DNA of 62,101 nt from positions 1 through 62,101 of the forward strand of contig NZ_FOAP01000036.1 in assembly GCF_900109545.1 (NCBI RefSeq). The letters are read 5' to 3'. Below, one piece after another: positions 21,941 through 32,081 of this stretch (position 1 is its first letter; every line of letters begins with the position of its first letter). Under the pieces are notes generated by a model, which was not told the origin of the DNA, did no database searches, and worked only from the letters and a program-made list of their open reading frames with translations. Source of the DNA: Stigmatella aurantiaca (GTDB lineage: Bacteria; Myxococcota; Myxococcia; Myxococcales; Myxococcaceae). Position numbers and translations under genes: made by a program.

Positions 21941-22960
21941 TCACGAAGCGACGAAGACCCGCGAGAGGATCCGGCTGACATCCTCCACCTGATCCGCCCG
22001 CAGCCCCACGGCCCAGTGCAGCTTGCGCGTGGCCAGCACCCAGAACAGCGTGCAGCCGCCGAGCACCAGCGCGTTGTGCACGGTGGGCTGCACGAGCCAG
22101 AGGATGCCCATCAGGAACACATACCAGAACTGGTACGTCCACTCGCGCACCGTCGTCCGCTCGTGGGGCTCGCGCGCCCCGCGCACCAGCGAGGCGAAGA
22201 GCAGCGAGATGGGGGCGAACACCACGAGCGCCAGGAACCGCGGCTCCGCCGCGCCGGAGGCCACCAGCCCCGCGATGAAGAGGTAGGGGCTGCCCAGGAG
22301 CAGCAGCAGCCGCGCCGCCGAGCGCCGGCTGGCCACATCCACGAAGAAGCTCCGGTAGCCGCGCTTCGCATCGCCCTCCACGTCGGTGATGTCCTTGATG
22401 CCCGACAGCGAGAAGACGAACACCAGCATCGCCAGGATGGGCAGCGGCACGCTCTTGAACTCGCCGTAGATCATCCACCCGCAGAGGAACGGCAGGATGA
22501 AGGTGCCGCACAGCGCCACCAGCACCCCGAGCCGCCGCGCCTTGAAGCGCAGGCCCACCGAGTAGTTCCACATCACCAGCCACGAGACGAGCTGCACCGC
22601 GAACAGCTCCGGGCGCCGCCACTCGGCGAACCACGCCAGGTAGAAGGCCAGCACCAGCGCGTTCAGCCCGATGGCCGCCCGGCGGATGGTGTCGTACCCC
22701 ACCTGCTCGCACAGCAGCGTCCGCTCCTGGCGGTTCACCGCGTCCTCGATGCGGTCCGCGTAGCGGTTGGTCAGCTCGATGGCCAGGCACTTCACCATCC
22801 ACAGCGGCACGGAGATCGCCAGCCAGGGCACGGGGTCGTGCCCCGTGGCGGCAATCGCCGTGGAGAAGGCCGCCAGATAGAAGGCCGTGAACCGGATGCT
22901 GCCCACTTGGAGCAGGGTCACAACGCGCGTGGGGAATGTCGCTGATTGCACAAATCCCAT
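21941..22960 (-). CDS. auaA: AuaA-like membrane prenyltransferase (UbiA family)
   Basis: A 339-residue integral membrane prenyltransferase with about eight hydrophobic segments. The two Asp-rich motifs that bind diphosphate through magnesium are present: N65-x3-D69-x3-D73 (NRYADRIED) and D190-x2-D193-x3-D197 (KDITDVEGD). In aurachin biosynthesis AuaA attaches farnesyl to 2-methyl-4-hydroxyquinoline to give aurachin D. The ATG at 22960 has no strong ribosome site; a GTG about 13 codons in would shorten the protein to about 326 residues, the length I recall for the described AuaA. It heads the minus-strand operon and is divergent from the TetR gene. Confidence 0.85.
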   Translation of the reverse strand: MGFVQSATFPTRVVTLLQVGSIRFTAFYLAAFSTAIAATGHDPVPWLAISVPLWMVKCLAIELTNRYADRIEDAVNRQERTLLCEQVGYDTIRRAAIGLNALVLAFYLAWFAEWRRPELFAVQLVSWLVMWNYSVGLRFKARRLGVLVALCGTFILPFLCGWMIYGEFKSVPLPILAMLVFVFSLSGIKDITDVEGDAKRGYRSFFVDVASRRSAARLLLLLGSPYLFIAGLVASGAAEPRFLALVVFAPISLLFASLVRGAREPHERTTVREWTYQFWYVFLMGILWLVQPTVHNALVLGGCTLFWVLATRKLHWAVGLRADQVEDVSRILSRVFVAS

Positions 22961-23082
22961 AAGATACGGAAAATTCTTTCTGGGTTCAAACTGCGGCTAA
23001 ACCCGGTTGTCCCTCCTCTCCGGGTTCTTATCACGAACATCAGAACCCCCACCCCCGGCCGCCGGGGGTCGGCTTGTGAACT

Positions 23083-23090
23083 GAACGTTC
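23083..23090. promoter_or_regulatory. TetR-type palindrome, copy 1
   Basis: GAACGTTC, extended to TGAACGTTCGTTA, lies 20 bases before the TetR start and in the space shared with the divergent auaA operon. The same palindrome recurs at 23738. Perfect palindromes of this AACGTTCGTT type are typical TetR-family operators. Binding would affect the TetR gene and possibly auaA. Confidence 0.6.
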
Positions 23091-23110
23091 GTTAGGCTAA
23101 ACAGCGGCCC

Positions 23111-23734
23111 ATGGCGCAAGCGGTGCGAAAAGACGAGGTCCGAAACACCCGGCGCGCCATCCTGGACGCGGCCTTGGACCTGTTCTCGGTCCATGGCTAC
23201 GCGGGCACGTCCATCCGGCAGATCGCCCGCGCCGTGGAGGTGCGGGAAAGTGCGCTCTACCACCACTTCCCGTCCAAGGCGGCCATCTTCGAGGCGCTGC
23301 TGCACGAGTACGGCCCGGGGAAAACCGAGCGCCTGAGCCAGCTGGACCTGGACGCGGCGCTGGTGGGCGGCGTCCAGGCCTGCCTGCGCACCATGGCCGT
23401 GGAACTCTTCGAGGAGTGGGCCCTGCCGCGCGAGCAGAAGTTCGCCCGGCTGATGATGTCCGAGGCCCCGCGGCTGAGCACCGCGGGCATCGTCCACCCG
23501 GCCGCCATCCTGGGCCAGTCGCACACCCACATGGTGCACTTCCTGGAGGAGCTGGTGCGCCGCCAGCTCATCCGCCCCGGGGATTTGGACCTCTACGCCC
23601 TGGAGTTCATGGGGCCGCTCATCATGCTGCGCCAGATGTACCTGATGATGTCCTGGGGCCTGACGGACATGCGGGTCCTGAAAAACCAGGTTGAACAACA
23701 CGTCCACCATTTCTGTCAGTCGGTGAAACTATGA
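23111..23734 (+). CDS. TetR-family transcriptional regulator
   Basis: A 207-residue TetR regulator. The N-terminal helix-turn-helix is clear (DLFSVHGYAGTSIRQIARAVEVRESALYHHF spans about residues 23-53, split here by its helices: IRQIARAVEV and ALYHHFPSK). The C-terminal ligand domain is hydrophobic and Met-rich at its end, as in regulators that sense small lipophilic molecules. Palindromes flank the gene at 23083 and 23738, so it probably represses itself and the transporter genes downstream. Position between the two halves of the aurachin genes makes a quinoline the likely ligand, by inference. Confidence 0.85.
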   Translation: MAQAVRKDEVRNTRRAILDAALDLFSVHGYAGTSIRQIARAVEVRESALYHHFPSKAAIFEALLHEYGPGKTERLSQLDLDAALVGGVQACLRTMAVELFEEWALPREQKFARLMMSEAPRLSTAGIVHPAAILGQSHTHMVHFLEELVRRQLIRPGDLDLYALEFMGPLIMLRQMYLMMSWGLTDMRVLKNQVEQHVHHFCQSVKL

Positions 23735-23736
23735 AA

Positions 23737-23746
23737 CGAACGTTCG
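23737..23746. promoter_or_regulatory. TetR-type palindrome, copy 2
   Basis: CGAACGTTCG is a perfect ten-base palindrome three bases after the TetR stop and about 17 bases before the first permease start. It shares the GAACGTTC core with the copy at 23083. Its place suggests an operator for a separate promoter of the transporter operon. Confidence 0.6.
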
Positions 23747-23762
23747 CTCAGTGGAGGGGCCG

Positions 23763-25058
23763 GTGAAGCTCATCACACTCGCCGCCCGCAACCTCACGCG
23801 CAACCGGCGCCGGACCGCGATCTCGCTCGCCGCCCTCGTCCTGGGTGTGTGTGTGATGGTGCTCCTGCGCGCCTACATCAACGGCCAGCAGCGCGTCACC
23901 CAGGATGGGGTGGTGGAGGGCAACCTCGGGGCCGTCGTCATCAACAAGAAGGGCTACCAGGCCAACGTCCAGAGCTCGCCGCTGACGCTGGACATGGCGG
24001 ACTCGGAGGAGCTGCGCAAGCGCATCGCCTCCGTGGAGGGCGTCAAGGCGCTCACCGCGCGCATCGCCTTTGGCGCCATGCTCTCCATGCCGGACACGCA
24101 GGCCGAGGGCCAGCCGCCCCCCGCCTCCGAGGAGGACGAGGGCGCGGGCAAGACGACCTTCCTTTATATGACGGCGTTCGATCCGAAGCTGGAGGCGCAG
24201 GTGACGCCCCGCCGGATGGACTGGCTGGGCACCGGCAGCTTCCTGTCCAGCGTGGACGCCTCCGAGATGATGCTCAACGCGGACATGGCGCGCAGCCTGG
24301 GCACCCAGGTGATGAGCCTCCAGTCGCCGCCGCCCGAGGACCAGTGGCCCGCGCTGCTGGCCAGCGACCGCGACGGCGTGCTCAACGGCGAGGGCGTGAA
24401 GCTCTCCGGCACGCTGGTGAGCGCCACGCCGGGAGACCGGCGCCTGGGCTACCTGCCGCTGGCCACCGCGCAGCGCCTGCTGCGCATGGAGGGGCGCGTG
24501 ACGGAGTACGCCCTGGCGCTGAACCGGCTGGAGGATGCGCCCCGGGTGCGCGATGCGCTCAAGGCCCAGCTCGGCGCGGACTACGAGGTGCACACGTGGG
24601 ATGAGGTGCAGCCCTACGTGGCGGAGCTGCTCAAGCAGGAGGATTCCCTCTTCGGCATCATCATCTTCATCTTCCTGTTCGTGGTGCTGCTGGGCGTGGT
24701 CAACGTGATGCTGATGAACGTGCTCGAGCGGGTGCGGGAGATTGGCACCATGCTGGCGGTGGGCATGCGCCGGCGCCACATCATCTCGCTCTTCCTGATG
24801 GAGGGCGCGGTGCTGGGCCTGCTGGGCGGCGTCATCGGCGCGCTCGTGGGCTACGCGCTCACGCTCTGGCTGAACCAGAAGGGCATCCGCATCCCCGCTC
24901 CTGGCGCCAGCGTGGACAGCATCATCCGGCCCGTCATTCCGCTGACCTACCTCGTCCGGGCCACCGTGGTGGCCATCGTGGGCGCGTCGCTGGCGGCCCT
25001 GTGGCCCGCCTACCGCGCGTCCCGGCTCCGTCCCGTGGAGGCTTTGAGCACCTCATGA
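23763..25058 (+). CDS. ABC transporter permease, LolC/FtsX type (1)
   Basis: A 431-residue permease of the LolCE/MacB (FtsX) family: an N-terminal membrane segment (about residues 20-40), a periplasmic domain of about 230 residues, and three C-terminal membrane segments (from about 290, with FGIIIFIFLFVVLLGVVNVM, then EIGTMLAVGMRRRHI, the coupling region). I chose the GTG at 23763 because GGAGGGG lies just ahead; a GTG 12 bases upstream is possible. Its end overlaps the next permease start by four bases. It should form a heterodimer with that protein and use the ATPase encoded at 28561. Confidence 0.85.
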   Translation: MKLITLAARNLTRNRRRTAISLAALVLGVCVMVLLRAYINGQQRVTQDGVVEGNLGAVVINKKGYQANVQSSPLTLDMADSEELRKRIASVEGVKALTARIAFGAMLSMPDTQAEGQPPPASEEDEGAGKTTFLYMTAFDPKLEAQVTPRRMDWLGTGSFLSSVDASEMMLNADMARSLGTQVMSLQSPPPEDQWPALLASDRDGVLNGEGVKLSGTLVSATPGDRRLGYLPLATAQRLLRMEGRVTEYALALNRLEDAPRVRDALKAQLGADYEVHTWDEVQPYVAELLKQEDSLFGIIIFIFLFVVLLGVVNVMLMNVLERVREIGTMLAVGMRRRHIISLFLMEGAVLGLLGGVIGALVGYALTLWLNQKGIRIPAPGASVDSIIRPVIPLTYLVRATVVAIVGASLAALWPAYRASRLRPVEALSTS

Positions 25059-26335
25059 GCACGTCTCTTCCTTCGATCGCCGTCCGCAACGTGGCGCGCA
25101 ATGGGCGCCGCAGCTTCATCACCCTGGCCGCCGTGCTGCTCGGCGTCACCGCCGTCATCGTGCTGCGCGGCATCTCCGATGGCTTCGTGCGCCTCATGGA
25201 GGACGAAGTCGTCCAGGGCCGCACGGGCGCCCTGCAGATTCACCGCAAGGGCTTCGTCGACAGCGTGGAGGCGCTCCCGCTGGAGCCCAACATGCCCTAC
25301 GACGACGAGATGCGCGAGCGCATCCGCAGCGTGCCCGGCGTCACCGGCATCACCGGCCACATCCAGTTCTCGGGGCTGGTGAGCAACGGCGTCTCGCAGA
25401 CGATGTTCGTCGGCCGGGCGCTGGACATGAAGACCGAGAAGCAGGCGGTGCCCCGCTCGGGCTTCGACGTGCGCGTGGGCGGCGAGGAGCTGACCGAGGC
25501 GGACTACACCCACGGCATCTTCGGCGCCGAGCTGATCAAATCCTTCGGCGCGGTGACCCAGACGGCCAAGAAGAAGGCCCTGGCGGAGAACGCCCCCGGC
25601 GCGCAGGCGCTCGTGGAGCAGGTGACGCTCTCCTCCACCAGCCCCAAGGGCCGCTCCAACTCGTTCGACGTGTCCATCAAGGGCCTGAGCGACTCCAACC
25701 TGCCCTTCGAGAACAAGCGCGTGGCCACCGTGCCGCTGGCGCTCGCGCAGGACCTGCTGGGCATGCAGGGCCGCGTCACCGAGTACGCCGTGGCGGTGGA
25801 CAACCTGGAGAACCTGGAGCGCATCGCCGCGGAGCTGCGCACGAAGCTCGGCCCCGAGTACGAGGTCCACACCTGGCAGGAGCTGCAGCCGTTCGTGCGC
25901 GACGTCATCGTCCGCCTGAAGGTGGTGCTGGGCTTCGTGTCCGCGGTGCTCGGCATCATCATCGTCACCGGCATCATCAACGTGATGCTCATGAGCGTGT
26001 TCGAGCGGGTGCGCGAGATTGGCACCATGCTCGCCGTGGGCGTGCGCCGCCGCCAGGTGCTCACCCTGTTCCTGACGGAGGCGGCCTTCCTGGGGCTCCT
26101 GGGCAGCCTGGGCGGCGCGGCCATTGGCAGCGCGCTCGTGGCCCTGCTGGCCTCCAAGGGCATCCCCATGAAGAGCCTGGGCAGCGGCGTGGAGTCCCTG
26201 CTGCGCCCCGAGCTGCACGCGCCCTTCATGCTCGGCACGCTCGCCTTCGCCACCCTCGGCGCCGTCCTCGCGGCCAGCTACCCCGCCTGGAGGGCCAGCC
26301 GCATGCAGCCCGTGGATGCCCTTCGCTCCGTGTAG
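25055..26335 (+). CDS. ABC transporter permease, LolC/FtsX type (2)
   Basis: A 426-residue paralogue of the preceding permease with the same layout: one N-terminal membrane segment, a large periplasmic domain and three C-terminal segments, again with EIGTMLAVGVRRRQV. Translational coupling through an ATGA overlap supports a heterodimer like LolC-LolE. The periplasmic domain differs in length and sequence, so the two are not a recent duplication. Confidence 0.85.
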   Translation: MSTSLPSIAVRNVARNGRRSFITLAAVLLGVTAVIVLRGISDGFVRLMEDEVVQGRTGALQIHRKGFVDSVEALPLEPNMPYDDEMRERIRSVPGVTGITGHIQFSGLVSNGVSQTMFVGRALDMKTEKQAVPRSGFDVRVGGEELTEADYTHGIFGAELIKSFGAVTQTAKKKALAENAPGAQALVEQVTLSSTSPKGRSNSFDVSIKGLSDSNLPFENKRVATVPLALAQDLLGMQGRVTEYAVAVDNLENLERIAAELRTKLGPEYEVHTWQELQPFVRDVIVRLKVVLGFVSAVLGIIIVTGIINVMLMSVFERVREIGTMLAVGVRRRQVLTLFLTEAAFLGLLGSLGGAAIGSALVALLASKGIPMKSLGSGVESLLRPELHAPFMLGTLAFATLGAVLAASYPAWRASRMQPVDALRSV

Positions 26336-26366
26336 GTCTCTCTACTCCCTGAACCCCGAGGAACCC

Positions 26367-27092
26367 ATGAAGACGTTGCTCCTCAGCCTGATGACCCTCC
26401 TGGCAGCCGCTCCGGCGCTCGCCGCGGACCCCACCGCCGATCAACTGATCGCCCAGTACGATGCGGCCATGGGGCCCCACACGTACGACAGCGAATCGGA
26501 GATGGTGTCGTACCGGGAGGATGGCAGCAAGCGCACCTACGGCATGCGGATGATGAAGGCGGACGACGACAAGTTCCGCATCTGGTTCACCGCGCCCTCC
26601 AGCGTGAAGGGCCAGGAGGTGCTGCGCTCCGGGCAGAACATGTGGATCTACCTGCCCAACCTCAAGCGCGCCACGCGCATCGCCAACCGCGAGAGCTTCC
26701 AGGGCGGTGACTTCAACAACGCCGACGTGCTGCGCGTCACCTACGCCAAGGACTACACCGCCAAGCTGGTGGCCTCCGACGTGCCAGACACCTGGGCGCT
26801 GGAGCTGAAGGCGAAGAACCAGGACACGGCCTACGACTCCATCAAGCTGTGGCTGCGCAAGTCCGACAGCCTGCCGGTGAAGGGCCACTACTTCGGCACC
26901 AGCGGCCAGCTCCAGCGCAGCGCGGAGTTCACCGACTACACCGAGTTCGAGAAGGGCTTCACGCGGCCAGCCCGCATCATCATGCAGAACGAGCTGGTGA
27001 AGACCCGCCGCTCGGAGATGATTTTCAAGACCATGAAGCGCGACGTGGAGATCAAGGCGCAGCGCTTCACGCAGGCGGATCTCGGCCGCTAA
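26367..27092 (+). CDS. LolA-like outer-membrane lipoprotein-sorting protein
   Basis: A 241-residue exported protein: signal peptide at residues 1-20 (ending APALA), then a LolA-like half-barrel of the outer-membrane lipoprotein-sorting family found beside exporters (VKGQEVLRSGQNMWIYLPNLKRATRI, then VKGHYFGTSGQLQRSAEFTDY). Such proteins carry lipophilic cargo across the periplasm. It lies between the permeases and the outer-membrane protein, so a chain from inner to outer membrane is likely. The start has CCCGAGGAAC upstream. Confidence 0.8.
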   Translation: MKTLLLSLMTLLAAAPALAADPTADQLIAQYDAAMGPHTYDSESEMVSYREDGSKRTYGMRMMKADDDKFRIWFTAPSSVKGQEVLRSGQNMWIYLPNLKRATRIANRESFQGGDFNNADVLRVTYAKDYTAKLVASDVPDTWALELKAKNQDTAYDSIKLWLRKSDSLPVKGHYFGTSGQLQRSAEFTDYTEFEKGFTRPARIIMQNELVKTRRSEMIFKTMKRDVEIKAQRFTQADLGR

Positions 27093-27117: not shown

Positions 27118-28551
27118 ATGCGCCCCCACGCCCTGCTCTGCCTGCTGCTGGCCTCGCCCCTGCTGTCCCCGGTTGCCCGGGGTGCCGAGGTGAATGGCTA
27201 TGTGGAGAGCCGCACCCAGTACACCCGCTCCCGGGTGGACGGGGTGCTGCCCACCCGTGGGCAGCCCGAACTGCAGCAGCTCTTCGAGTTCAACGGCCAG
27301 CTCCGGCACGAGTACCGGCCCGGCGGCGTCGTCTCGGCCGACCTGTCCCTGTTCCTGTCCATGGCCGGGCGCTACCGGAGCCTGAACGCGGAGCAGCGGG
27401 AGGTGGGCGTGCGGCCCACGGAGGAGGCGGCGGCCCAGCCCATCGCCTCCATCAACGAGCTGTTCCTCCAGCACGAGTTCGCCCCGGCCTTCAACGTGCT
27501 GGCGGGCAAGAAGCGGCTCATCTGGGGCGCGGGCCTGGCCTACAACCCCACCGACCTGCTCAACCCGCTGAAGGACCCGACGGACCCCACCTTCCAGCGC
27601 GCCGGCGCGTGGATGGTGCGCCTGGAGGTGCCGCTGGAGAAGTACGCCTTCACGCTGCTCGCGAGCCCCGCGGTGACCGAGCAGGTGAGCGGCCTGCCCC
27701 GCTCCATCCTCACCTACCCCTCGTGGGACAAGCGGGATGACGAGCTGCACTACCTCATCGCCGCCCGCGCGTACGCGCTGGTGCTCGATGCGGACGTCAA
27801 CCTGATGCTCTTCCACTCGAACCTGTACCGCAACGCCTTCGAGGACAAGACGCAGCTCGGCTTCTCCTTCTCGCGCTACTTCTTCACCGACTACGAGCTG
27901 CACGTGGAGGCGCTCGTGGGCTCTGGCTCCCCCAGGCTCTATGCGGCCCCGGACTGCGTGGCCTCCCCGGAGGCGGCGCTCGGCTGCGCGGAGCGCGGCG
28001 CGGACTTCCTCGTGCCCCGCCGCATCAACGAGGGCCGCATCCGGCCGCAGATTCTCGCCGGCACGCGCTACATGTTCAGCGACGAGTCCATGGTGTCGCT
28101 GGAGTACCTCTACCAGGCCGACGGCCTGAAGAAGGCCGAGGCGCAGGACTACCTCAATGGGCTGTCGCTCCTGCGCTCGGGCGAGCAGTTCGGGCTGGAC
28201 CCGTCCGGCATCGGCTTTGGCGGGGCGGACCCGGGGCTGCCCCAGAAGTTCAGCTTCGAGCCCATCACCCGGCACTACGCCTTCCTCAGCTTCCAGAAGC
28301 CCAAGATTCGCGACGACTTCACCTTCTCGGTGGTGCTCGTCTCCAGCCTTCAGGACCTGTCCGGGCTGGTGAGCCCCAGCCTCGCCTGGTCCGCCAAGGA
28401 GTGGCTGACGCTCACCCTGTCCGCCTTCGTTCCCTACGCGGGCCCCAGCTCACTTGCCGCCAAGAGACCCGGAACCGGGGAGGCGGTGAGCGAGTTCAGC
28501 CTCCTGCCCCTCAAGTATCGCGGCCTGTTCCAGGCCCGCATCTTCTACTGA
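27118..28551 (+). CDS. outer-membrane beta-barrel protein of the exporter operon
   Basis: A 477-residue protein with a signal peptide (residues 1-22, ending ARG-A) and alternating hydrophobic strands throughout, ending in GLFQARIFY, a terminal aromatic residue as required for barrel assembly. I do not assign a named family, though it is similar in type to DUF1302-like porins. Gene order (permeases, LolA-like, barrel, ATPase) points to an outer-membrane component of a lipid-like transport route. It starts 25 bases after the previous gene. Confidence 0.7.
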   Translation: MRPHALLCLLLASPLLSPVARGAEVNGYVESRTQYTRSRVDGVLPTRGQPELQQLFEFNGQLRHEYRPGGVVSADLSLFLSMAGRYRSLNAEQREVGVRPTEEAAAQPIASINELFLQHEFAPAFNVLAGKKRLIWGAGLAYNPTDLLNPLKDPTDPTFQRAGAWMVRLEVPLEKYAFTLLASPAVTEQVSGLPRSILTYPSWDKRDDELHYLIAARAYALVLDADVNLMLFHSNLYRNAFEDKTQLGFSFSRYFFTDYELHVEALVGSGSPRLYAAPDCVASPEAALGCAERGADFLVPRRINEGRIRPQILAGTRYMFSDESMVSLEYLYQADGLKKAEAQDYLNGLSLLRSGEQFGLDPSGIGFGGADPGLPQKFSFEPITRHYAFLSFQKPKIRDDFTFSVVLVSSLQDLSGLVSPSLAWSAKEWLTLTLSAFVPYAGPSSLAAKRPGTGEAVSEFSLLPLKYRGLFQARIFY

Positions 28552-28560
28552 AAGACGACC

Positions 28561-29304
<744 letters not shown>

Positions 29305-29366
29305 GCCCCTGGCCTTCGACTGACCGCTTTGAACGCATTGCTGCTTGATTCACCTGGGAGGACGTC

Positions 29367-30386
29367 ATGAAAGAACTCGACTTCTGGCACCCCGTCATTC
29401 AGAGCCAGGACCTGAAGGACAAGCCCCTGGCCGTCACCGTCTTGGGCAAGAACATCGCCCTGTTCCGCACCGCGGACGGCAAGGTGGGCGCGCTGGAGGA
29501 CCGCTGCCCCCACCGCCGCATGAAGCTCAGCAAGGGCAAGGTCGAGGGGGACCGGCTGGTGTGCCCCTACCACGGCTGGAGCATCGACCGGGCCGGTGAG
29601 GTGAAGGCGCCCATCCACAACAACGAGCCCATGCGCTCGTGCGCCACCCACTACATGGCCGCCGAGCAGCACGGGGCCATCTGGCTCAAGAACGCGGGCG
29701 CGGACACCCCGCTGCCCCAGCTCCACAAGCCCGACCACCGCTGCGCCTTCGTCATGCGCCACCGCATGGAGGCCCCCCTGGAGGTGGTGCTCGACAACTT
29801 CGTCGAGCTGGACCACAGCGTCACCACCCACCTCATCTTCGGCTACCAGAACGTGACCCAGGCCTCCGCCGAAGTCGAAGTGGACGGCGACGTCATGCGC
29901 GTCAACCACCGGGGCCCCCAGAAGCAGGTCTCCCTGCCCCTGAAGCTCATGTTCGGCGTGAAGGAGGGCGACTGGGTGCAGGTGCCCACCGAGATGCGCT
30001 TCAGCCCCGTGAGCATGATCTCCGAGCAGCTCTGGACCAACGACAAGGAGCCCGGCAAGGTCCGCTCCCCCGGTACCCAGATGGTCATCTACTTCACCCC
30101 GGTGACCGACGACATCACCGACGTGCTGACCTTCACCTTCGTCTCGCCCAAGCTCCACAAGATGATGACGCGCATGCCCTTCCTGGGCCGGAAGGTGCTC
30201 TACACGCTCGTCGATTACGAGACCAAGCTCGACCAGGAGATGCTCGCGAACCTGGCGGACAAGGACCCGAACCTGCGCGGCATGAAGCTGGGCCGCCTGG
30301 ACAAGCCCCTGGGCCAGGTCCGCACCCTGGTCAACCGCATCTACCGCGGCCAGCCCCAGCCGGTCCGCGTCGCCGAATCCGCCTGA
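29367..30386 (+). CDS. auaF: AuaF-like Rieske oxygenase
   Basis: A 339-residue oxygenase with a Rieske [2Fe-2S] domain (CPH at about residue 47 and CPYHGW about 18 residues later) and a mononuclear iron site (E-x2-H-x4-H in VELDHSVTTHLIFG). Layout is that of pheophorbide a oxygenase-type terminal oxygenases. In aurachin biosynthesis AuaF is a Rieske enzyme that N-hydroxylates aurachin D to aurachin C. The position after the transporter genes and before an aryl-CoA ligase supports that name. The ATG has TGGGAGGACG ahead. No ferredoxin or reductase gene lies close by, so electrons come from elsewhere. Confidence 0.8.
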   Translation: MKELDFWHPVIQSQDLKDKPLAVTVLGKNIALFRTADGKVGALEDRCPHRRMKLSKGKVEGDRLVCPYHGWSIDRAGEVKAPIHNNEPMRSCATHYMAAEQHGAIWLKNAGADTPLPQLHKPDHRCAFVMRHRMEAPLEVVLDNFVELDHSVTTHLIFGYQNVTQASAEVEVDGDVMRVNHRGPQKQVSLPLKLMFGVKEGDWVQVPTEMRFSPVSMISEQLWTNDKEPGKVRSPGTQMVIYFTPVTDDITDVLTFTFVSPKLHKMMTRMPFLGRKVLYTLVDYETKLDQEMLANLADKDPNLRGMKLGRLDKPLGQVRTLVNRIYRGQPQPVRVAESA

Positions 30387-30403
30387 GGTCCGGCTTGACC
30401 CAT

Positions 30404-30430
30404 GCCCCCCGCCCCTCTGGGCGCGGGGGC
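30404..30430 (+). terminator. GC-rich hairpin after Rieske gene
   Basis: GCCCCC-c-GCCC-ctct-GGGC-gc-GGGGGC starts 18 bases after the Rieske stop. It may end the transporter-Rieske transcript; the next gene would then need its own promoter in the AT-richer stretch around 30470-30500. Confidence 0.5.
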
Positions 30431-30530
30431 GTGACGAGCTGCGGCAGCCCCCCACTTCCCTGTTAGCCGCCAAAAGTGCATTATTCCACTTAGAGGCGAT
30501 TCCGCTGACAGCTCGCGACGAGGGTTGTGG

Positions 30531-32081
30531 ATGAAGGCTGCAGATCTACCGCTGTATTACAACGCTGTGGACATCCTGGAGCGCAACCTCGCCACGCGCC
30601 CGGACAAGACGGCCCTCTTCACGCCGGAGCGGGAGCTGACGTTCCGGCAGGTCTCGGACGAGGCCAACCAGGTGGGCAACGCGCTGAAGGGGCTGGGGGT
30701 CCGCTTCGGCGAGTGCGTGGGCATCCTCACGCTGGACAGCGCCGAGTGGGTCACGTCCTTCTTCGGCACGGTGAAGATCGGCGCCATCGCGGTGGGCATC
30801 AACACGCTGCTCAAGGCGCCCGAGTACGAGTACATCCTGCGCGACTGCCGGGCCCGCGTGCTCATCGTCCATCAGGAGTTCCTCCCGCTCATCGAGTCGG
30901 TCCGCGGCAACCTGCCCATTTTGGAGCACGTCGTCGTCATCGGCGAGGGGCCGCATGCGGGCCACCTCTCCTTCCACGAGTGGATGCGCGGGCAGTCCAC
31001 CGCGCTGGAGGCGGCGCAGAGCCACCGCGAGGACATCTGCTCGCTGAACTACTCCAGCGGCACCACGGGCGGGCCCAAGGGCATTCCCCACGCGCACAAG
31101 GACTACCCGCTCACCGCGCAGCTCTGGGGCGTGAACGTGCTGGGGCTGCGCGAGAGCGACCGCACCTTCGCGCTGGCCAAGCTGTTCTTCACCTTCGGCA
31201 CGGGCGGCAACCTCATCTTCCCGTGGTACGTGGGCGCCAGCTGCGTGCTCTTCCCGGGCGCCGCGCGCGTGGCGGCGAACGTGCTGGGCACCATCGCCCG
31301 CTTCAAGCCCACCATCTTCTACAACGCCCCCACCGGCTACGCGGCGGCGCTGGCGATGAAGGACTTCTCCCAGTACGACTTGTCCTCCCTGCGGCTGTGC
31401 GTGTCGGCCAGCGAGGCCCTGCCCGCGGCGCTCTGGTACGCGTGGAAGGAGGCCACGGGGGTGGACATCATCGACGGGATCGGCTGCACGGAGAACTTCC
31501 ACATCTTCATCTCGAACCGGCCCGGGGACATCCGCCCCGGCAGCAGCGGCAAGCCCGTCGAGGGCTACGACCTCAAGCTCGTCGACGATGAGGGCAAGAC
31601 GGTGCAGGCCGGCGAGATCGGCAACGTGCTGCTGCGCAGCGAGACCGCGGCGCTCTCCTACTGGCACAACTTCGAGAAGAGCCGGCAGACCTTCCAGGGC
31701 GAGTGGCTCGCCACGGGGGACAAGTACTTCATCGACGCGGACGGGTACTACTGGCACGCGGGCCGCTCGGACGACATGCTGAAGGTGGGCGGCATCTGGG
31801 TGTCCCCCGTGGAGGTGGAGAGCACCCTCATCCAGCACCCGGCCGTGCAGGAGTGCGCCGTCATCGGGTGCCCGGACCAGAGCCGGCTCATCAAGCCCAA
31901 GGCGTTCGTCATCCTCAAGCCGGACCAGACGCCCTCCGAGGCGCTGATCCACCAGCTCACCGAGCACTGCACGGAGAAGATGGCGGCCTACAAGCGCCCG
32001 CGCTGGATCGAGTTCGTCACCGAGCTGCCCAAGACGGCCACGGGGAAGATTCAGCGTTTCAAGCTGCGCAGCGCCGCGTAG
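30531..32081 (+). CDS. auaEII: AuaEII-like anthranilate/aryl-CoA ligase
   Basis: A 516-residue aryl-CoA ligase of the benzoate-CoA ligase type with intact catalytic motifs: the ATP loop YSSGTTGGPKG (about residues 174-184), ATGDKY, and the C-terminal PKTATGKIQR with the catalytic Lys. It should activate anthranilate to anthraniloyl-CoA, the substrate handed to the carrier protein by AuaE; this division of labour is known for aurachin. I chose ATG 30531, which has GAGG eight bases upstream; a TTG six bases earlier is less likely. It is followed 10 bases later by a hydrolase gene. Confidence 0.82.
   Translation: MKAADLPLYYNAVDILERNLATRPDKTALFTPERELTFRQVSDEANQVGNALKGLGVRFGECVGILTLDSAEWVTSFFGTVKIGAIAVGINTLLKAPEYEYILRDCRARVLIVHQEFLPLIESVRGNLPILEHVVVIGEGPHAGHLSFHEWMRGQSTALEAAQSHREDICSLNYSSGTTGGPKGIPHAHKDYPLTAQLWGVNVLGLRESDRTFALAKLFFTFGTGGNLIFPWYVGASCVLFPGAARVAANVLGTIARFKPTIFYNAPTGYAAALAMKDFSQYDLSSLRLCVSASEALPAALWYAWKEATGVDIIDGIGCTENFHIFISNRPGDIRPGSSGKPVEGYDLKLVDDEGKTVQAGEIGNVLLRSETAALSYWHNFEKSRQTFQGEWLATGDKYFIDADGYYWHAGRSDDMLKVGGIWVSPVEVESTLIQHPAVQECAVIGCPDQSRLIKPKAFVILKPDQTPSEALIHQLTEHCTEKMAAYKRPRWIEFVTELPKTATGKIQRFKLRSAA

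Follow-up and report, generated by a model that had tools for sequence, protein, structure and literature searches.

Palindromic sites flanking a tetR gene as predicted operators of a local switch for a Lol-like exporter in Stigmatella aurantiaca

Organization of the tetR-exporter locus

The window, i.e. the whole stretch of 62,101 nucleotides that was analysed, is contig 36 of the 9,365,767-base genome of Stigmatella aurantiaca. It contains a TetR-family regulator gene situated between a divergent aurachin-type gene and a co-directional set of exporter genes. The features relevant to this work are:

21941-22960, minus strand: UbiA-family prenyltransferase (auaA-like; Pfam-type domain match), divergent neighbour of tetR
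23074-23103, plus strand: putative tetR promoter (TTGTGA at 23074-23079, 18-nt spacer with s1, TAAACA at 23098-23103)
23083-23094, no strand: predicted operator s1, GAACGTTCGTTA (GAACG-TT-CGTTA), one mismatch to GAACGNNCGTTC; includes GAACGTTC at 23083-23090
23111-23734, plus strand: TetR-family regulator of 207 aa (Pfam TetR_N, PF00440, 65.1 bits, cut-off 24, residues 17-63)
23734-23745, no strand: predicted operator s2, AAACGAACGTTC (AAACG-AA-CGTTC), one mismatch; includes GAACGTTC at 23738-23745
23763-25058, plus strand: FtsX/LolC-like permease 1, GTG start, picked because of the preceding GTGGAGGGG
25055-26335, plus strand: FtsX/LolE-like permease 2 (domain match)
26316-27092, plus strand: LolA-like periplasmic carrier (PF17131, 147.6 bits, cut-off 30)
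27118-28551, plus strand: conserved protein of 477 aa, probably an outer-membrane beta-barrel as judged by eye
28561-29304, plus strand: LolD-like ABC ATPase (ABC_tran, 116.5 bits)
29367-30386, plus strand: Rieske [2Fe-2S] oxygenase, probable AuaF (PF00355, 83 bits)

The gene context given in an earlier note on this DNA, with the TetR gene on the plus strand, the auaA-like gene on the minus strand and the permeases on the plus strand from 23763, holds; permease 1 has an alternative in-frame GTG at 23751. An AMP-ligase gene (probable auaEII) follows the Rieske gene, the pair spanning 29367-32081, and the divergent side encodes the UbiA-type prenyltransferase, an acyl carrier protein, two ketosynthases and another AMP-binding enzyme. 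The review PMC10295502 lists functions for auaA to auaD that the first four divergent genes fit, and it lists auaE as an acyltransferase, whereas AMP-binding domains are found in the corresponding gene of this window. Agreement in function and gene order, not comparison with published sequences, is thus the basis for the names auaA and auaF.

The exporter shares with LolCDE-LolA two LolC/E-like permeases, a LolD-like ATPase and a LolA-like carrier, and differs from it by the additional 477-aa conserved protein and by the TetR gene in front. The scores against the Lol equivalog models tested all lie below the cut-offs (lolCE 96.8 and 86.5 of 362.45; LolD 220.3 of 307.75; LolA 20.4 of 112). The 477-aa protein has a signal-peptide-like start and a C-terminal aromatic residue, yielded no Pfam match up to an E-value of 10, and an AlphaFold2 model built from a two-sequence alignment reached a pLDDT of 28.9 and was discarded. 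Its homologues lie beside Lol-like ABC genes where viewed, and it is perhaps the exit of a Lol-like exporter of small molecules or lipids.

The regulator carries the N-terminal TetR_N helix-turn-helix (HTH) domain of its family. Its HTH resembles, among others, the AcrR and MtrR models of NCBIfam, although all 22 NCBIfam matches remain far below the curated cut-offs, the best of them (ScbR, AcrR) cover the N-terminal HTH only, and the AcrR and MtrR equivalog scores amount to 47.4 of 271 and 45.5 of 280 bits. Repressors of the AcrR/MtrR type and the protein described here have in common the N-terminal TetR HTH, a gene located beside an exporter and a palindromic site before the regulator's own gene. 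Unlike that type, the predicted operators flank the regulator gene, with the second at the tetR stop codon, and the regulator gene points in the same direction as the exporter genes.

Occurrence of the palindromes in the window and in the genome

The palindrome GAACGTTC is present at 23083-23090 and at 23738-23745, as the earlier note had claimed, and these copies are the only pair within the window. Shuffled versions of the window contain 0.55 copies on average, and at least two copies occur in 10 of 100 shuffles. Across the genome, 66 copies face 39 for the same letters reversed, so that the bare 8-mer is too common to serve as an argument. No TetR-type HTH (TetR-group profile, E ≤ 1e-4) was found within about 1.5 kb of 50 of the 64 copies outside the window (49 stretches), and a crude GC3 filter assigns 33 of the 49 central sites to likely coding sequence. 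The copy numbers of the 8-mer in the genome and in the shuffled windows are what speaks for the explanation that both palindromes are chance occurrences.

The two sites have more in common than the 8-mer. An 11-mer, AACGAACGTTC, is shared by both in opposite orientation (23083-23093 on the minus and 23735-23745 on the plus strand) and occurs at three places in the genome, two of which are these sites. The reversed control likewise yields three places, and it is thus the position of the 11-mer that is informative, not its number. The earlier note had named frequent occurrence across the genome as an observation that would count against its proposal; this applies to the 8-mer with its 66 copies and does not apply to the 11-mer with its three. 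What raises the sites above chance is the common 11-mer together with the maintenance of the motif at both places in relatives, as described below.

The third genomic copy of AACGAACGTTC (C7:303409, upstream of a predicted lipoprotein of 105 aa) was considered as a further target and rejected. Its promoter stretch is conserved in same-genus genomes that lack the TetR gene and its core is variable, with only the 8-mer in G004, GAACGATCGT in G005 and GAACATTCGT in G002, G003 and G006. As this core does not track TetR, the third place is probably due to chance. A stretch before a small predicted lipoprotein gene (L035, 1490-1540) contains a TTGATACGACCTGAAC.TTCGT-like sequence that is conserved in seven same-genus genomes, with a varying core.

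Definition of the operator and its conservation in relatives

The TetR gene (E ≤ 1e-20) was detected in 15 of 96 family genomes, a count in which weak homologues were possibly missed, as scoring stopped at 32 candidate stretches per genome and many genomes exceeded that number. In G009 the 5' end of tetR is missing, and this locus was counted for the second site only. L052 (Archangium lansinium), taken as the same genome as G040, was left out of the footprint counts, and homologues in G030 and G023, which belong to other families and have other neighbours, were kept out of the 15. The order tetR, permease, permease, LolA-like carrier, 477-aa protein and ATPase is kept in the seven relatives searched with tblastn (G001, G015, G011, G010, G019, G009 and Archangium lansinium).

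Comparison of the sites in these loci suggests that the operator is better written as a 12-bp inverted repeat, GAACG-NN-CGTTC (GAACGNNCGTTC), whose centre lies 2 bp off that of the palindrome proposed earlier. Seven of the 14 first sites lack the 8-mer and match the 12-mer with at most one mismatch: GAACGACCGTTC in both G011 and G107, GAACGAGCGTTC in G108, GAACAACCGTTC in G073, GAACGAATGTTC in G106, GAACGACTGTTC in G010 and GAACAGTCGTTC in G111. All seven keep the GAAC and GTTC arms with four bases between them. As these sites retain both arms without GAACGTTC, the 12-mer is likely the operator, and the 8-mer results from AA or TT as its middle two bases. The alternative that the operator is the 8-mer itself (or CGAACGTTCG) can draw on the 12 of 15 loci that have the 8-mer at one or both positions (7 of 14 first and 8 of 15 second sites), and it appears unlikely in view of the seven first sites listed above, which fit the longer motif only. 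Neither s1 nor s2 of the reference locus is a perfect 12-mer. The first base of s2 coincides with the third base of the tetR stop codon, and 17 bases separate its end from the start of permease 1. A register that overlaps it, GAACGTTCGCTC (23738-23749), has one mismatch as well.

When at most one mismatch is allowed, each of the 14 loci that retain the 5' end of tetR has the 12-mer immediately before this gene, and 11 of 15 loci have it in the gap between tetR and permease 1. These two target windows, 2,090 bp in total, contain 30 motif matches and the remaining 47,702 bp of the 15 loci contain none; the chance expectation per locus is 0.0076 for the first and 0.0038 for the second site (first-order Markov resamples, 300 per locus). 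Both the target windows and the 12-mer were picked after the sites had been spotted, and these probabilities are therefore descriptive. The second site starts on the tetR stop codon in six of the 11 loci and 14 bases past it in the other five. It is absent in G040, G039, G015 and G009, four loci where the stop codon of tetR and a permease start seem to share bases (ATGA or GTGA). A motif that recurs at the same two places and nowhere else in these loci renders the chance explanation extremely improbable.

The 14 loci span eight genera, including that of the reference strain. Outside its own species pair, the TetR protein is 40-59% identical to the reference protein, and the upstream DNA of the loci is dissimilar by eye, so that inheritance without selection is a poor account of the shared sites. 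The stretch VRESALYHHF, which we take to contain the DNA-recognition helix as in other TetR proteins, is identical in all 14 aligned cassette homologues. The palindromic site near the regulator's own gene is accordingly conserved together with the protein, as is characteristic of the TetR family. Of the two homologues kept out of the 15, that of G030 has a 12-mer upstream; no motif was found at the locus of the more distant one in G023, whose HTH is near-identical (VRESAIYHHF).

In the reference genome, the exact 12-mer occurs at five places versus nine in the reversed control, and 189 versus 310 places are found when one mismatch is allowed. The motif is thus not enriched genome-wide, which suggests no larger regulon, and with this many one-mismatch places it is unable to specify a site on its own. 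For comparison, Bm3R1 of Bacillus megaterium binds an operator with a TGAACGTTCA core, so that the GAACGTTC core is common to both; the Bm3R1 operator is a longer, differently flanked palindrome and controls a different target gene.

Exporter cassettes without the TetR gene

Homologues of the 477-aa protein were found in 36 of the 96 genomes; these include every one of the 15 TetR-bearing genomes and leave 21 from which cassettes without the regulator can be drawn. The control consisted of 15 cassettes, namely those of 14 of these 21 genomes and a second copy in G040; G044, G045, G046, G021, G071, G018 and G007 were omitted. Four cassettes were unusable, either because a permease was not detected in the stretch (G003) or because the contig ends before the permease 1 start (G102, G110 and G008). 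G072 and G073, which carry the TetR gene, provided positive examples. In all 11 usable cassettes without the TetR gene (G006, G020, G017, G016, G043, G013, G074, G089, G084, the second G040 copy and G047), both the motif and the 8-mer are absent within 200 bp upstream of permease 1, which indicates that the motif goes with the regulator and not with the transporter. Stray motif matches in two of the controls (G084 and the second G040 copy) lie more than 2 kb from the permease 1 start. Permease 1 identity is 55-66% in four of the 11 controls (G006, G020, G017 and G016), the only ones as close as the TetR-bearing cassettes, and 39-45% in the other seven. In the stretch L234 (G003:C343), a 66% homologue of the 477-aa protein is encoded, and the 6.9 kb upstream contain no permease match.

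The co-occurrence of motif and TetR gene also bears on the explanation that the sites belong to another protein, i.e. a different TetR-family member or a sigma factor, and that the neighbouring TetR protein has its targets elsewhere. In two of 21 distant TetR loci, those of G013 and G022, the same 12-mer occurs twice upstream of a different TetR-family gene, the copies being 64 bp apart (L014 of G013, 1345-1424; L017 of G022, 1339-1418) and the HTH stretches of the encoded proteins reading LQPSALYSHF and LRPSALYAHF, respectively. A second TetR group therefore appears to use the 12-mer operator too, and more than one regulator seems to recognize it. A wider scan of TetR loci gave 48 motif matches in 1,146,197 bases; in loci of more than 16 kb, for which the position of the TetR match was assumed, the preceding 200 bp contain no motif. 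For the locus described here, the motif's association with its own TetR gene and its absence before permease 1 in every usable TetR-less cassette make ownership by another protein very unlikely.

Predicted mode of regulation

The positions of the motif, its conservation with the TetR gene and its absence from TetR-less cassettes together make it highly likely that s1 and s2 are operators of the intervening TetR protein, which would repress both its own gene and the exporter operon. This part of the earlier proposal, in which a single regulator controls both itself and the transporter, gains strong support from the comparative footprint and the TetR-less cassettes, with binding being predicted. 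Such a pair would very probably constitute a well-supported switch of an ordinary, local type, as the pattern recurs in relatives that mostly lack aurachin genes. No report of this operator or regulator was found among the matches listed in the open-licence literature.

A TetR dimer is envisaged to bind the 12-bp inverted repeat. Occupation of s1 between the -35 and -10 elements of the tetR promoter would switch off the regulator's own transcription, a position typical of repressors that act by keeping RNA polymerase off the promoter. The putative promoter of the reference locus is weak, with 7 of 12 consensus letters, and was placed by analogy with the loci of relatives; a consensus scan of 22880-23900 detected no sigma-70-type promoter. 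In eight of 14 loci, s1 lies by eye between TTGAC(N) and TAT(A/T) elements 17 to 19 bases apart.

Occupation of s2, in the gap that separates tetR from the ribosome-binding site of permease 1, would keep transcripts from entering the exporter operon. TetR bound there might act as a roadblock to transcription that continues from the tetR promoter, might form a loop with s1, which is about 650 bp away here (645 to 697 bp across loci), or might cover a weak internal promoter; inspection by eye revealed no promoter-like surroundings at s2. The repressor would be released by an effector, which is probably a hydrophobic small molecule and a substrate of the exporter. For an uncharacterised exporter that is present in several myxobacterial genera, the analysis yields a concrete predicted operator and the operon that it would control.

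Relation to the aurachin genes

The earlier note had added auaA as a possible target, a suggestion that finds no support here: of the 15 genomes that carry the TetR gene, 13 have none that resembles auaA, and the first site lies just upstream of tetR in all 14 loci in which this stretch is in view. In the reference locus, the site is part of the tetR promoter region, and 122 bp separate it from the start of auaA. Two of the 96 family genomes, both among the 15, have an auaA-like gene (E ≤ 1e-40). With so few examples, a comparative footprint on auaA is impossible. Twelve of the 13 genomes without auaA show the first operator, and the thirteenth (G009) lacks that stretch.

A wider reading would make the protein a true regulator of the aurachin pathway, with s1 also repressing auaA and aurachin or a precursor acting as inducer. 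It is consistent with the location of s1 within the auaA-tetR intergenic stretch and with the distribution in the genus, where two of seven genomes carry the TetR gene together with the auaA-like gene and the other five yield neither at the cut-offs used. In addition, the exporter cassette is flanked by auaA-D-like genes on one side and by a Rieske and AMP-ligase pair on the other that fits the auaF and auaEII functions given in PMC10295502. Against it, the auaA-like gene accompanies the regulator in only two of 15 genomes, a distribution that does not mark a cluster-specific regulator, no second motif is found near auaA, and five other loci viewed more widely have no auaA-like gene upstream of tetR (tblastn), the ORFs there being different by eye. 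A dedicated aurachin regulator is consequently considered doubtful, and a local repressor of its own gene and the exporter is preferred.

On the basis of its position, the Rieske gene is a more plausible additional target of this local repressor than auaA. It starts 62 bp after the ATPase gene, and no terminator-like site was detected in 28400-30560, which is weak evidence as the finder is crude (shuffles average 1.1 sites). The gene may hence be read through from the exporter operon and be co-controlled with it, and a tie between exporter control and the N-hydroxylation step is possible. Among the seven tblastn relatives, a Rieske match behind the cassette was obtained only in G001, the contig of G015 ending within the ATPase, and none was found in five loci of other genera with at least 2.4 kb at this place (tblastn).

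A more speculative scenario, which we regard as improbable, is that an exporter-repressor module was captured in the aurachin cluster. An aurachin-type farnesyl-quinolone would then free TetR and thereby turn on the Lol-like trans-envelope exporter along with the Rieske N-hydroxylase (auaF). If true, export and antibiotic tailoring would be tied to aurachin's own concentration via an operator at the tetR stop codon. The comparison separates parts of the exporter cassette from parts of the aurachin pathway and names a candidate aurachin exporter, which might be of use for self-protection and as a lever for yield. As a minor observation, the auaA-tetR gap also contains a G+C-rich inverted repeat, CCCCCGGC/GCCGGGGG, at 23052-23068, which is imperfect in G001.
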